Below, piece after piece: positions 10,186 to 39,780 of a DNA stretch of 40,200 bases. Numbering within the stretch: position 1 is the stretch's first letter; every line of letters begins with the position of its first letter. A program made the position numbers and the translations under genes. The notes below the pieces were generated by a model, which did no database searches, was not told the origin of the DNA, and saw nothing but the letters and a program-made list of their open reading frames with translations. The stretch is from Rhodospirillales bacterium (GTDB lineage Bacteria; Pseudomonadota; Alphaproteobacteria; ATCC43930; CGMCC-115725), in contig JADGGZ010000009.1 in the NCBI GenBank assembly GCA_019689675.1, positions 1-40,200 of the forward strand. Reading direction: 5' to 3'.

Positions 10186-10270
10186 GTGTCTCGCCTGGGG
10201 TGCCGTCCCGCAAGGGACGGCTGAGATCACACCCATCGAACCTGTCTGGGTAATGCCAGCGAAGGGAGAG
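10186..10270 (+). promoter_or_regulatory. TPP (THI-box) riboswitch
   Basis: The conserved thiamine pyrophosphate aptamer elements appear in order: GGGGTGCC at 10197-10204, the variable P3 stem CGTCCC/GGGACG, GGCTGAGATCACACCC, GAACCTG and CTGGGTAATGCCAGCGAAGGGA. It sits directly before thiO. The 3' end of the aptamer (AAGGGAGAG, 10262-10270) is also the only purine-rich ribosome-binding site for the ATG at 10273. Ligand binding, which closes P1, should therefore hide the ribosome site when TPP is plentiful. The aptamer call is from sequence; the translational mechanism is inferred. Confidence 0.95.
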
Positions 10271-10272
10271 CG

Positions 10273-11430
10273 ATGCACCAAGCTCCTGCCACGCACCACT
10301 CCCGTCCGAGCGTCGCGATCGTCGGCGCCGGAGTGATCGGGCTTTCGATCGGCTGGCGCCTCGCAGCCGCCGGCTGCGCGGTCGATGTCTACGAGAAGGG
10401 CGAGGCCGGGCGCGGCGCGAGCTGGGCAGCCGCGGGAATGCTCGCAGCCGGCGTCGAGAGCGAGCCGGGCGAGGAGGCGCTCTTGCCGCTGACGCAGGCG
10501 AGCCAGGCGCTCTGGCCGAGCTTCGCCGCCGAGCTCGAGGCGGCCTCCGGCATCGAGGTCGGGTACCGAGACGAGGGCACGCTCGTCATCGCGCTCACCC
10601 GTGACGACGTCGAGCGGCTCCGCTTCACGTTCGAGCTGCAGCGACGGCTGGGGCTCGAGATCGAATGGCTCGGGGGCGCCGCCGCGCTCGCACGCGAGCC
10701 TCATCTCTCGCCCCGCGTCGCCGCCGCCTGCTTCAGCCCGCGCGACGTGCAGGTCGACAACCGTTCGGTCGCGCGCGCGCTCGCCGCGGCGTTCCGGCGC
10801 GCCGGCGGGCGGCTTCACGAGAACACGCCGGTGGAAGCGATCGACATCGAAGGGAACGTCGCTCGCGGCGTGGTCGTGGCAGGGACGCTGCGCCGGGCCG
10901 ACGTCGTCGTGCTCGCCGCCGGCGCGGCCTCGCCGGACGTTCCCGGCCTGCCGGAAGCGGTGCGGCCGCCGGTGCGCCCGGTGAAGGGGCAGATGCTGGC
11001 GCTGCGAATGGATCCTTCGGCGCCGCTCCTGCGCCACGTCGTCTGGGCGCCGAACGCCTATCTCGTCCCCCGGCGCGACGGCCGCCTTCTCGTCGGCGCG
11101 ACGGTCGAGGAGCGCGGCTTCGACGACTCGCTGACCGCAGGCGGCATTCTCGCCCTCCTCGACGGAGTCTGGCGCGCCCTGCCGGGCGCCGAGGAGCTGG
11201 CGATCGACGAGATGTGGGTCGGCTTCCGCCCCGGCTCGCGCGACGACGCGCCGATCCTCGGGCTCTGCGCCATCGACGGCCTCGTCATGGCGACCGGCCA
11301 TCATCGGAACGGAATTCTGCTGGCGCCGATCACGGGCGATGCGCTGAGCGCGCTCATCCTCGACGGAAAGACGCCGGAAGCGATCCGCCCCTTCGCGCTC
11401 CAGCGCTTCGAGAGGAAGGAGCCGGCATGA
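10273..11430 (+). CDS. thiO: Glycine oxidase ThiO
   Basis: 385 residues. This FAD-dependent amine oxidase turns glycine into iminoglycine, which supplies carbon and nitrogen for the thiazole ring of thiamine in aerobes. The N-terminal dinucleotide-binding motif is [18 protein letters not shown] at about residues 14-31. The [10 protein letters not shown] segment and the C-terminal [16 protein letters not shown] and [15 protein letters not shown] are typical of ThiO and related D-amino acid oxidases. It is the first gene of the riboswitch-controlled operon and its TGA overlaps the thiS ATG. Confidence 0.95.
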
Positions 11431-30786: not shown

Positions 30787-30812
30787 AACGGAGCCGCGCA
30801 GCGCGCGGTTCC
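30787..30812 (-). promoter_or_regulatory. EcfG-type general-stress promoter for the dehydrogenase
   Basis: On the minus strand GGAAC (30812-30808), 17 bases, CGTT (30790-30787): an exact match to the alphaproteobacterial EcfG consensus. It lies in the 66-base gap before the dehydrogenase gene and would start RNA near 30780, about 32 bases before the ATG. Confidence 0.7.
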
Positions 30813-30814
30813 GC

Positions 30815-31531
30815 CTACTCGACCTCGACCTGCGGCGTGAAGATGTACCCGGTCCCGCGGACCGTCTTGATGATGCTCGGCCGCTCCGGATCTTCCTCGA
30901 GCTTGCGTCGGAGGCGCCCGACCTGGACGTCGATGGTGCGGTCGAAGGGCCCGGCCTCCCGATTCCGCGCGAGGTCGAGGAGACGGTCACGGCTCAGGAC
31001 TTGGTTGGCGTTGTTGACGAAGGCCGCGAGGAGGTCGAACTCGCCGGTCGTGAGACGCACCTCCTCGCCCTTCGGCGAGACCAGCTCACGCGTCGCCAGG
31101 TCGAGGTTCCAGCCTGCGAACTTCGCCTTGGTCCGCTGCTTCGGCTTGTCGGCGCCGGTGCGGGCCGAGACGCGCCGGAGGACGCTCTTCACCCGCGCCA
31201 GCAGCTCGCGCAGGTGAAACGGCTTCGGCAGGTAATCGTCGGCGCCCATCTCCAGGCCGATGATGCGGTCGACCGTCTCGCCGCGGCCGGTGAGGATGAT
31301 GATGCCGACATCCGACGTCTCGCGCAGCGAACGGGCGAGGGTGAGACCGTCCTCGCCTGGCAGCATCAGGTCGAGGATGACGAGGTCGATCTCGGCCTGC
31401 CCCATGACGCGGCGCATGCCCGAGCCGTCATGCGCCACGCTGACCTTGTACCCCTCGCCGGAGAGGTACTCCTGGACGACCTCGCAGATCTCCTTCTGAT
31501 CGTCGACGACGAGGATGTGCCCGGTGTCCAT
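30815..31531 (-). CDS. OmpR-family response regulator
   Basis: 238 residues from ATG 31529-31531; a TTG at 31552 would add seven residues. The receiver domain has Asp10-Asp11 (LVVDDQ), phosphorylatable Asp54 (VILDLMLPGEDG) and Lys103 (YLPKPFHLREL). The DNA-binding domain is a winged helix of OmpR type (VRLTTGEFDLLAAFVNN, FDRTIDVQVGRLRRKLEEDP, IIKTVRGTGYIFTP). No histidine kinase gene is adjacent, so it is an orphan here. It is transcribed away from the ECF sigma gene; the shared 240-base gap (31532-31771) is A+T-rich and must hold both promoters, but I could not fix them. Confidence 0.93.
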   Translation of the reverse strand: MDTGHILVVDDQKEICEVVQEYLSGEGYKVSVAHDGSGMRRVMGQAEIDLVILDLMLPGEDGLTLARSLRETSDVGIIILTGRGETVDRIIGLEMGADDYLPKPFHLRELLARVKSVLRRVSARTGADKPKQRTKAKFAGWNLDLATRELVSPKGEEVRLTTGEFDLLAAFVNNANQVLSRDRLLDLARNREAGPFDRTIDVQVGRLRRKLEEDPERPSIIKTVRGTGYIFTPQVEVE

Positions 31532-31771
31532 GGCACGAATGTGTCGTAACAACCTCGCCGATGCAATATCGCGCTGGTAGTACGCATAAATCGCTACCGA
31601 AAGCGTGACGTTTGTATCCCCCCGATTACAGACAGTTACAATTGCTTACTAAAAACCCTCCACCGAGTCATAAGCGGATTACATCGCGCGGCTACAGTCC
31701 GTCTGTCAGCGCGTCGCCGTTGAGCGATCGACACAGGACTGACGGACAACGCAAGAGGAGCGAGCTGCGCT

Positions 31772-32335
31772 ATGACCGACAGCGTTTATCGGCAAATTGA
31801 AGAAGAAATTCCGCGTTTGCGGCGCTACGCGCGAGCGCTCACCCGGGATTTCAACACCGCCGACGACCTCGTACAGGACTGCCTCGCCCGCGCGCTCGGC
31901 AAGGTCCATCTCTGGCAGCGGGGCTCGGATCTGCGCGCCTGGCTGTTCACGATTCTCCATAACCAATTCGTTAATCAGGTCCGCCGCTCCGCCCGGGAGG
32001 GTACCGCGATCGCGGCCCAGGAGAACTCGCGCAATCTCTCTTCGGGGCCGAGCCAGAGCACGCGGCTGGAGCTGCGCGACCTCCAGCGCGCTATGGCCAA
32101 GCTGCCGGAGGAGCAGCGGGCGGTCATTCTCCTCGTCGGCCTCGAGGGGATGCGCTACGAGGAGGTGGCGACGGTTCTCAACGTCCCTGTGGGTACGGTA
32201 CGTTCCCGCCTCAGCCGCGGCCGGGACATGCTGCGTCAGCTCATGGGCATGAACCCCGACGAGGAGGTTTTGCCGCCCTCGAAGGGTGCCGCCCCGAGGC
32301 TTCGCCTCGCCTATGCCGAGGCCGCGGCGGGCTGA
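31772..32335 (+). CDS. ECF-type RNA polymerase sigma factor
   Basis: 187 residues. Region 2 (RYARALTRDFNTADDLVQDC, RAWLFTILHNQFVNQVRRS) binds core polymerase and the -10 element. Region 4 (LPEEQRAVILLVGLEGMRYE, VATVLNVPVGTVRSRLSRGR) is the -35 helix-turn-helix. A short extension follows. It is in the size range of EcfG-type sigma factors, but nepR and phyR, which normally flank ecfG, are absent, so it may be a stand-alone paralogue or another ECF group. AGAGGAG lies upstream of the ATG. EcfG-type promoters lie directly downstream and on the other side of the neighbouring regulator gene. Confidence 0.93.
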   Translation: MTDSVYRQIEEEIPRLRRYARALTRDFNTADDLVQDCLARALGKVHLWQRGSDLRAWLFTILHNQFVNQVRRSAREGTAIAAQENSRNLSSGPSQSTRLELRDLQRAMAKLPEEQRAVILLVGLEGMRYEEVATVLNVPVGTVRSRLSRGRDMLRQLMGMNPDEEVLPPSKGAAPRLRLAYAEAAAG

Positions 32336-32352: not shown

Positions 32353-32377
32353 GGAACGGCGGCATCGCCCCGCTGTT
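32353..32377 (+). promoter_or_regulatory. EcfG-like promoter of a candidate small RNA
   Basis: GGAAC (32353-32357), 16 bases, TGTT (32374-32377), one mismatch from GGAAC-N16-CGTT, starting 18 bases after the sigma-factor stop. RNA would begin near 32384 and meet an intrinsic terminator at 32509-32544 before the next gene. Confidence 0.5.
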
Positions 32378-32383
32378 GTGCAG

Positions 32384-32544
32384 CGAGAGCACCGCCTTGG
32401 GGCGGTGCTTCGGACAGCAGGTTGCCGGGCGCCTGCCTCCGCGATTCGACCTCCCCCCAGCCCGGCATGGCAAAGTCTCCCTGTACGCGGGTTTGCCACC
32501 CGCAAACTCGCCGGGCCGGACCCCCTCCAGGCCCGGCGATTTTT
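32384..32544 (+). ncRNA. Candidate stress-induced C-rich small RNA
   Basis: About 160 bases between an EcfG-like promoter and a strong terminator. The folds seen are: AGCACCGCC-TTGG-GGCGGTGCT (32388-32409, 9 bp); GCAGG/CCTGC (32417-32436); an unpaired C-rich run ACCTCCCCCCAG (32449-32460); a 10-bp stem at 32487-32511 with loop CACCC; and the terminator, whose loop is GGACCCCCTCCA. C-rich exposed segments that pair with Shine-Dalgarno sites are a hallmark of alphaproteobacterial small RNAs. The sigma-T-dependent GsrN of Caulobacter is a comparable, C-rich-loop example. No ORF with a ribosome site lies inside. It could instead be an attenuated leader of the DUF2188 gene. Confidence 0.5.
32509..32544 (+). 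terminator. Intrinsic terminator after the sigma gene / small RNA
   Basis: CGCCGGGCC (32509-32517), 12-base C-rich loop, GGCCCGGCG (32530-32538), then ATTTTT. The stem is a perfect 9 bp. Its first three bases are shared with the preceding 10-bp hairpin, so the two folds compete at the edge. Confidence 0.85.
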
Positions 32545-32600: not shown

Positions 32601-32831
32601 ATGTTGGGACGCCACGTCTACCGCATCACGCCGGACGAGGAAGGGCTTTGGGTCGTGAGCAAGGACGGCGTCACAGCGCCGCTGGGGCGCAAGGACACCC
32701 GCGACGAGGCGCTGCGGCTCGCCTGCGATCTCGCCGAACGCGACCAGCCGAGCAGGGTCGTGGTCGAGCCCGGGGACGGCACGATCTCCGAGGAACGAAC
32801 CTACGGGGCAGACACGGCGGACGTTCGCTGA
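32601..32831 (+). CDS. DUF2188-domain small protein
   Basis: 76 residues from ATG 32601, with AGGAGGAG just upstream. The pattern HVYRITPDEEGLWVVSKDG, then DTRDEALRLACDLAERDQPS and RVVVEPGDGTI, matches DUF2188: a short three-stranded domain with a helix, found alone in many proteobacteria and of unknown function. The frame is open upstream without a ribosome site. It is followed after 2 bases by the EcfG-type promoter of the carbohydrate operon. Confidence 0.8.
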   Translation: MLGRHVYRITPDEEGLWVVSKDGVTAPLGRKDTRDEALRLACDLAERDQPSRVVVEPGDGTISEERTYGADTADVR

Positions 32832-32833
32832 GG

Positions 32834-32858
32834 GGAACGAACGCTGCGGCGCTTCGTT
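32834..32858 (+). promoter_or_regulatory. EcfG-type general-stress promoter for the trehalose/glycogen operon
   Basis: GGAAC (32834-32838), 16 bases, CGTT (32855-32858): an exact consensus match in the gap before the GlgE-fusion gene. It is directed toward glgE-treS-glgB and would start RNA near 32865. Trehalose synthesis genes are classic members of the EcfG regulon in alphaproteobacteria. Confidence 0.7.
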
Positions 32859-33170
32859 GTTGACCCGCGTCCATTTCGCGGTGGTGTGCCTGGAGGGAAC
32901 GTCGCGGCGGCGAGGGCGTTTGCCGTGCGGTCCCTGTGGCAGGAGGCGGCTCGCCTCCCCTGCCGCCCCCAATTCCGTGCGGCGGAACGCGGCGCCGCAG
33001 CGTCGGACCGATCCTAGGCAAGCGGTCCGTTGGCGCAGCCGAGAGCATCTCGGGCCACAGGTGCCTTGCTCGATCCTGCTGGCGGATGGTCGCAGAAGGC
33101 CGTCGATCCTATTATCACTGCGGAACCGGACCGGCCTTGTTTGGGTGACGACCGCTCGCCCAAGGTGGTG
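32859..33170 (+). other. Long leader before the GlgE-fusion gene
   Basis: About 305 bases between the predicted start point and ATG 33171. A frame open from 33030 joins the gene but has no GH13 similarity and no ribosome site. I see scattered GC hairpins, no riboswitch that I know and no terminator. Either the leader is truly long or a second promoter lies nearer the gene. Confidence 0.4.
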
Positions 33171-36416: not shown

Positions 36417-36594
36417 CCGCGGACCGCGCACGCGAAGGTCGTAAGGCGCGCCAGCGCCGCGGCCGCGCCGCTACGAAACCGTGTCCGGGTGGCACGCTTT
36501 TCCGGCCAAGCATCCACCTCATACGGATCTGGTAAGGACGCGGGCTTCGCGCCATTTCATGCGGACGGACTCCATAGCCTCCGAGGTCGTCACG

Positions 36595-39763
<3,169 letters not shown>

Positions 39764-39780
<17 letters not shown>

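Follow-up and report, generated by a model that had tools for sequence, protein, structure and literature searches.

The window analysed here, a stretch of 40,200 nucleotides from an uncultured soil alphaproteobacterium, carries 3' of an ECF sigma gene a predicted small RNA gene of ~160 nt. The usual order of the locus is a divergent response regulator gene, the sigma gene and the RNA; the RNA thus adjoins an EcfG-like sigma gene, with no nepR or phyR at the locus. The neighbouring genes in the window are the following.

30815 to 31537, minus strand: OmpR-type response regulator, a syntenic neighbour
31772 to 32335, plus strand: ECF sigma factor of the EcfG/PhyR-sigma2 type (Pfam PF22029, 77.5 bits)
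32601 to 32831, plus strand: downstream DUF2188 small protein of 76 residues, found in 10 of 17 other loci

The wider surroundings look like a stress/trehalose-glucan island. Perfect matches to GGAAC-N16/17-CGTT are in surplus in the window (6 found against 0.65 expected), one lying ahead of an SDR gene (30787-30812, minus strand) and two ahead of a GlgE-type gene (32834-32858 and 32896-32920, both on the plus strand), and it is this surplus that makes the window resemble a stress island. A trehalose-synthase-like gene is present further along (36481-39780), and a TPP riboswitch is found at 10186-10285 on the plus strand (64.2 bits, gathering score 54.3). Regarding the partner proteins, a PhyR-like protein was not found in the host genome (G000, 98% complete). 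A NepR-like frame of 61 residues (L051, 1384-1569) gives a weak match to PF18557 and is preceded by GGAAC-N16-CGTT, with neither ecfG nor phyR adjoining. EcfG paralogues and their promoter boxes have been reviewed elsewhere (PMC8103513).

The sigma gene ends with a stop codon at 32333-32335 and, 17 bases further on, the RNA promoter begins.

32353 to 32377, plus strand: EcfG-type promoter GGAAC-N16-TGTT, made of GGAAC (32353-32357), a 16-nt spacer and TGTT (32374-32377), found in 18 of 18 homologues with unrelated spacers

With the N16/17-NGTT form of the pattern and both strands counted, the 40-kb window holds 8 sites against 1.2 expected, a number reached by none of 100 shuffles, so that a promoter arising by chance in the short gap downstream of the sigma gene is very unlikely. 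GGAAC-N16/17-NGTT is present in all 18 homologues, 73-119 bases upstream of the core described below; these promoters were chosen by pattern, the chance rate of which is just ~1.2 per 80 kb of strand. Between genera, the spacers share 29% identity, which is near random, and GGAAC and GTT are identical in 18/18, the -10 elements being CGTT (9), TGTT (6) or AGTT (3). Judging from these boxes, the sigma factor reading the promoter would be of the EcfG type.

Downstream of the promoter, the following elements of the RNA have been delineated, all on the plus strand.

32384 to 32544, plus strand: predicted small RNA transcript of ~160 nt, from promoter and terminator positions, the start being placed ~7 nt past the -10 element
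32388 to 32409, plus strand: 5' hairpin P0, AGCACCGCC-UUGG-GGCGGUGCU, accessory
32417 to 32422, plus strand: helix A, 5' strand GCAGGU, in 18/18 and pairing better than all 5000 partner permutations
32424 to 32430, plus strand: helix B, 5' strand GCCGGGC, covarying
32431 to 32436, plus strand: helix A, 3' strand GCCUGC, pairing with 32417 to 32422
32437 to 32459, plus strand: long putative pseudoknot loop with the C-rich stretch ACCTCCCCCCA, C-rich in some lineages only
32460 to 32466, plus strand: helix B, 3' strand GCCCGGC, covarying
32469 to 32503, plus strand: near-invariant core, from the homologue alignment
32469 to 32474, plus strand: core strand C5, GGCAAA
32475 to 32484, plus strand: pyrimidine stretch of the core and candidate seed, GUCUCCCUGU, the same in 18/18
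32487 to 32491, plus strand: core strand D5, GCGGG
32492 to 32497, plus strand: core strand C3, UUUGCC
32499 to 32503, plus strand: core strand D3, CCCGC
32509 to 32544, plus strand: intrinsic terminator with a 9-bp stem, a 12-nt loop and a U-run, covarying in homologues

P0 is regarded as accessory since the RNAs of genus g11, which are shorter, lack it. The terminator stem is formed by CGCCGGGCC and GGCCCGGCG (32509-32517/32530-32538), which enclose the 12-nt loop GGACCCCCTCCA and are followed by the U-run (32540-32544); because of the length of this loop, a simple terminator scan fails to detect it. All the features announced by the first-pass annotation, i.e., an EcfG-like promoter, a 5' hairpin, stems, a C-rich stretch and a terminator, were thus located where it had placed them.

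Homologues were found by DNA search, in single copy, in 18 of the 39 genomes of the host's family, distributed over five of its 11 genera (g1, g4, g5, g6 and g11). When relatives were searched for a conserved promoter and terminator, as initially proposed, both were found to be kept in 18/18, as was the core, which stays the same across genera even though their promoter spacers have become random. The covariance model R1, trained on the homologues, recovered the same 18 family genomes, one copy each and no second copy. Extended to 385 genomes sampled over the class, the R1 search returned the RNA's own genome only, under strict filters and with 10 candidates scored per genome, so that weak relatives could be missed. 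In 84,980 species genomes, the exact core pattern was found in 18 stretches, corresponding to 17 contigs of uncultured alphaproteobacteria, which agree with the loci found in the family, and one Chitinophaga contig; the latter, which carries none of the locus neighbours, is taken as a chance match. From these searches within and beyond the family, the RNA is limited to one family as far as seen, and the sample consists of related genomes, mostly uncultured MAGs. A coding function was also considered and rejected: the most conserved stretch bears one-base indels and a start codon is not kept, and the RNA gene is hence non-coding.

The comparison of loci also bears on whether the RNA is an independent gene. 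The first-pass annotation had singled out homologous loci losing the promoter or the hairpins while keeping the neighbouring genes as the case that would speak against it. Among relatives, promoter and RNA are either jointly present (18 loci) or jointly absent (6 loci), an outcome that favours the independent gene. Neither a promoter of the GGAAC-N16/17-NGTT form nor the core was found in four loci with both response regulator and sigma gene (G001, G004, G011 and G037) or in two that have the regulator alone (G009 and G032), implying that promoter and RNA are gained or lost together. L035 has a single promoter-like match, with an 18-nt spacer and no core downstream. Conversely, in G010 (L088) and G028 (L086), no sigma gene separates the RNA from the response regulator, and both the RNA and its promoter are kept. 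A cis-acting element, either a 3' UTR or terminator of the sigma mRNA or a leader of the DUF2188 gene, could have been suspected from the position of the RNA between these two genes in many genomes. It would have to account for these two sigma-less loci, for the absence of DUF2188 in 7 of 17 loci (L076, L077, L081, L085, L086, L088 and L093) and for the RNA's own terminator preceding DUF2188, and we regard it as very unlikely; being at odds with loci missing one or the other neighbour, the cis-leader/3' UTR reading was rejected. The RNA of L086 is followed not by DUF2188 but by a macro-domain-like frame and, in several relatives, GGAAC...GTT also precedes the DUF2188 gene. Taken together, a promoter conserved amid unrelated spacers, sigma-less loci and joint absence argue that the small RNA is an independent unit equipped with an EcfG-type promoter. 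Such an RNA of ~160 nt, as first suggested, is predicted from the 18 conserved loci, and its persistence where the neighbouring sigma gene is lost makes it a probable stress-induced regulator with a role of its own.

Structurally, the folding energy of the single sequence is unremarkable (z -1.91, 8 of 200 shuffles being as good), as would be expected of a chance assembly of GC-rich hairpins; with a conserved promoter, a conserved core and covarying helices found in 18 genomes, the probability of such an assembly is, in our opinion, negligible. In alignment A4, in which helix B and the terminator are counted with C and D, 92.4% of the cells are paired versus 87.9% in shuffles, and 10 pairs show changes on both sides, a number matched by none of 500 shuffles. 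The slid control yields at most 45% paired cells, a comparison favouring any consensus-derived structure, so the double changes carry most of the weight. Covariation in helix B and the terminator goes beyond both shuffled and slid controls. Helix A, with 5-8 pairs, is present in 18/18; its own-partner score of 12.8 lies above all 5000 partner permutations (mean 9.6) and far exceeds the within-sequence shuffles (mean 4.8, maximum 6.6).

The two helices follow the order A5-B5-A3-B3; loop L1 spans 0-2 nt and loop L3 9-24 nt, lengths that are compatible with H-type pseudoknots. Two interleaved conserved helices, compatible loop lengths and covariation are therefore combined in 18/18, and the 5' domain is best read as an H-type pseudoknot in which A and B would form simultaneously, alternating hairpins leaving the same sequence record. 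In the core, C and D are likewise interleaved, and a single base separates C3 from D3; as this is judged too short to span C, the two hairpins are read as alternatives. With A/B and C/D each interleaved, the middle of the molecule cannot consist of plain nested hairpins. Of the 'four hairpins' first described, what stands is a structured RNA, the middle of which is made of two pairs of interleaved helices. Helices C and D are both nearly invariant, which demonstrates constraint and leaves too little variation for a covariation proof of either. Nested folding, a method that cannot represent a pseudoknot, favours C or D depending on the genome and makes no consistent choice. A more elaborate possibility is that the core flips as a bistable switch, GUCUCCCUGU being constrained in hairpin C and free in D; the 5' pseudoknot would tip the balance, and target pairing would be gated by folding in addition to the amount of RNA. 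We hold this for a tentative and rather doubtful proposal.

Regarding known families, the covariance search against Rfam suggested by the first-pass annotation, run with Rfam 15, gave no family at its gathering score for the RNA, and no family fits the RNA at relaxed thresholds either. The best sub-threshold match to the window, ar7 (RF02342; 24.4 bits for a gathering score of 60), resembles the RNA by its C-rich loops and C-rich terminator loop, and ar15 (RF02345; gathering score 40) reaches 25.8 bits at one homologue; over the nine homologous loci searched, ar7 was found at the RNA in none and ar15 in one. The trans-encoded RNAs of Rhizobiales bearing the CCUCCUCCC motif (PMC3927594) are also small RNAs with anti-Shine-Dalgarno-like C-rich loops, but CCUCCUCCC is absent from the RNA described here, which is single copy and has another architecture.

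The most instructive comparison is with GsrN of Caulobacter crescentus (ccna_R0081), an RNA of ~100 nt discovered via a consensus SigT promoter, which carries a run of six cytosines in a 5' loop and owes its protective effect to katG activation (PMC5869019). Here, as in GsrN and GsrN-like RNAs (PMC5869019), an EcfG/SigT-type GGAAC...CGTT promoter, an intrinsic terminator and a C-containing motif come together, often with an EcfG-type sigma gene nearby, and this promoter type, in the form GGAAC-N16/17-NGTT, is present in 18/18 homologues here. However, the 5' C-run loop of GsrN is lacking: the P0 loop is UUGG, P0 itself is absent in g11, and the C-runs are internal and non-conserved. The invariant C-containing motif, GUCUCCCUGU, lies internally, behind the putative pseudoknot. 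Moreover, the C-rich elements initially designated as the business end do not hold up, ACCTCCCCCCAG (32449-32460), situated in the long putative pseudoknot loop, being clearly C-rich in just 6/18 homologues and the terminator loop in the host genome only. The analogy with GsrN stands in concept, through the stress-sigma promoter, the C-containing motif and the terminator, and not in its katG arm, as katG was not found in the host genome. Compared with GsrN by its published description, the RNA would work like it in concept.

The RNA could alternatively be a divergent GsrN, i.e., the same ancestral EcfG-dependent RNA as that of Caulobacteraceae and Rhizobiaceae, diverged beyond recognition. The shared promoter, terminator, C-containing motif and EcfG-like sigma neighbour would fit GsrN-like criteria (PMC5869019), but an internal UCUCCC motif behind a pseudoknot is far from the 5' six-cytosine loop of the ~100-nt GsrN, and KatG was not found in the host (G000) nor in G003, G046, G005, G035 and G010, all RNA-bearing and several of them near-complete. 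The exact core, the only part of the RNA used in the whole-collection scan, gave no named Caulobacteraceae record. We consider common descent with GsrN improbable.

The identity of GUCUCCCUGU in 18/18 homologues suggests that it is likely the target-pairing seed. Among candidate sites, ACAGGGAGAC before ATG is found at 17 sites in the 18 RNA-bearing genomes (the RNA's own loci being left out) versus 13 in the 21 genomes without the RNA, hence no clear enrichment of this pattern near ATG in RNA-bearing over RNA-less genomes. The only recurring candidate target is a hydroxylase-like gene, which has ACAGGGAGAC shortly ahead of it in L117 and L119, two close g11 relatives. Where katG exists, pairing of its leaders with the RNA is not above shuffles. 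Without ACAGGGAGAC enrichment or katG-leader signal, no target is supported. This outcome would also suit an RNA acting through its core or pseudoknot, either as the ligand of an RNA-binding protein or as a sponge for another small RNA, as would the conservation of the core in sequence and structure over ~35 nt, which exceeds a typical seed. Yet the RNA shows no repeated protein-binding motif and has no Rfam match of this kind, and such a sponge or protein-binding role appears unlikely to us.

We consider it probable that the locus is a gene for an EcfG-transcribed, trans-acting small RNA of a family outside Rfam, with a pseudoknot, a core of mutually exclusive hairpins, the seed GUCUCCCUGU and a terminator. 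As a mechanism, stress would release an EcfG-type sigma factor and, as its promoter suggests, the RNA would be transcribed from GGAAC-N16/17-NGTT as far as the terminator that it carries itself. An H-type pseudoknot would form in the 5' domain and protect the 5' end, and the near-invariant core would adopt one of two exclusive hairpins, C or D. GUCUCCCUGU, which would be freest with C open, may then pair with mRNA leaders at purine-rich, AGGGAG-like sites and thereby block or remodel translation, ribosome-site blocking being the action we infer; the U-tailed terminator suggests that Hfq is probably involved.

With promoter, putative pseudoknot, core, terminator and species range in hand, the RNA is defined well enough for modelling, homology searches and testing. 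Its host lineage lives in soil and is known mainly from metagenomes. While GsrN is the alphaproteobacterial general-stress small RNA worked out in the cited literature, the RNA described here would be a second and structurally different one. If true, this suggests that stress sigma factors in the class have acquired small RNA arms more than once.
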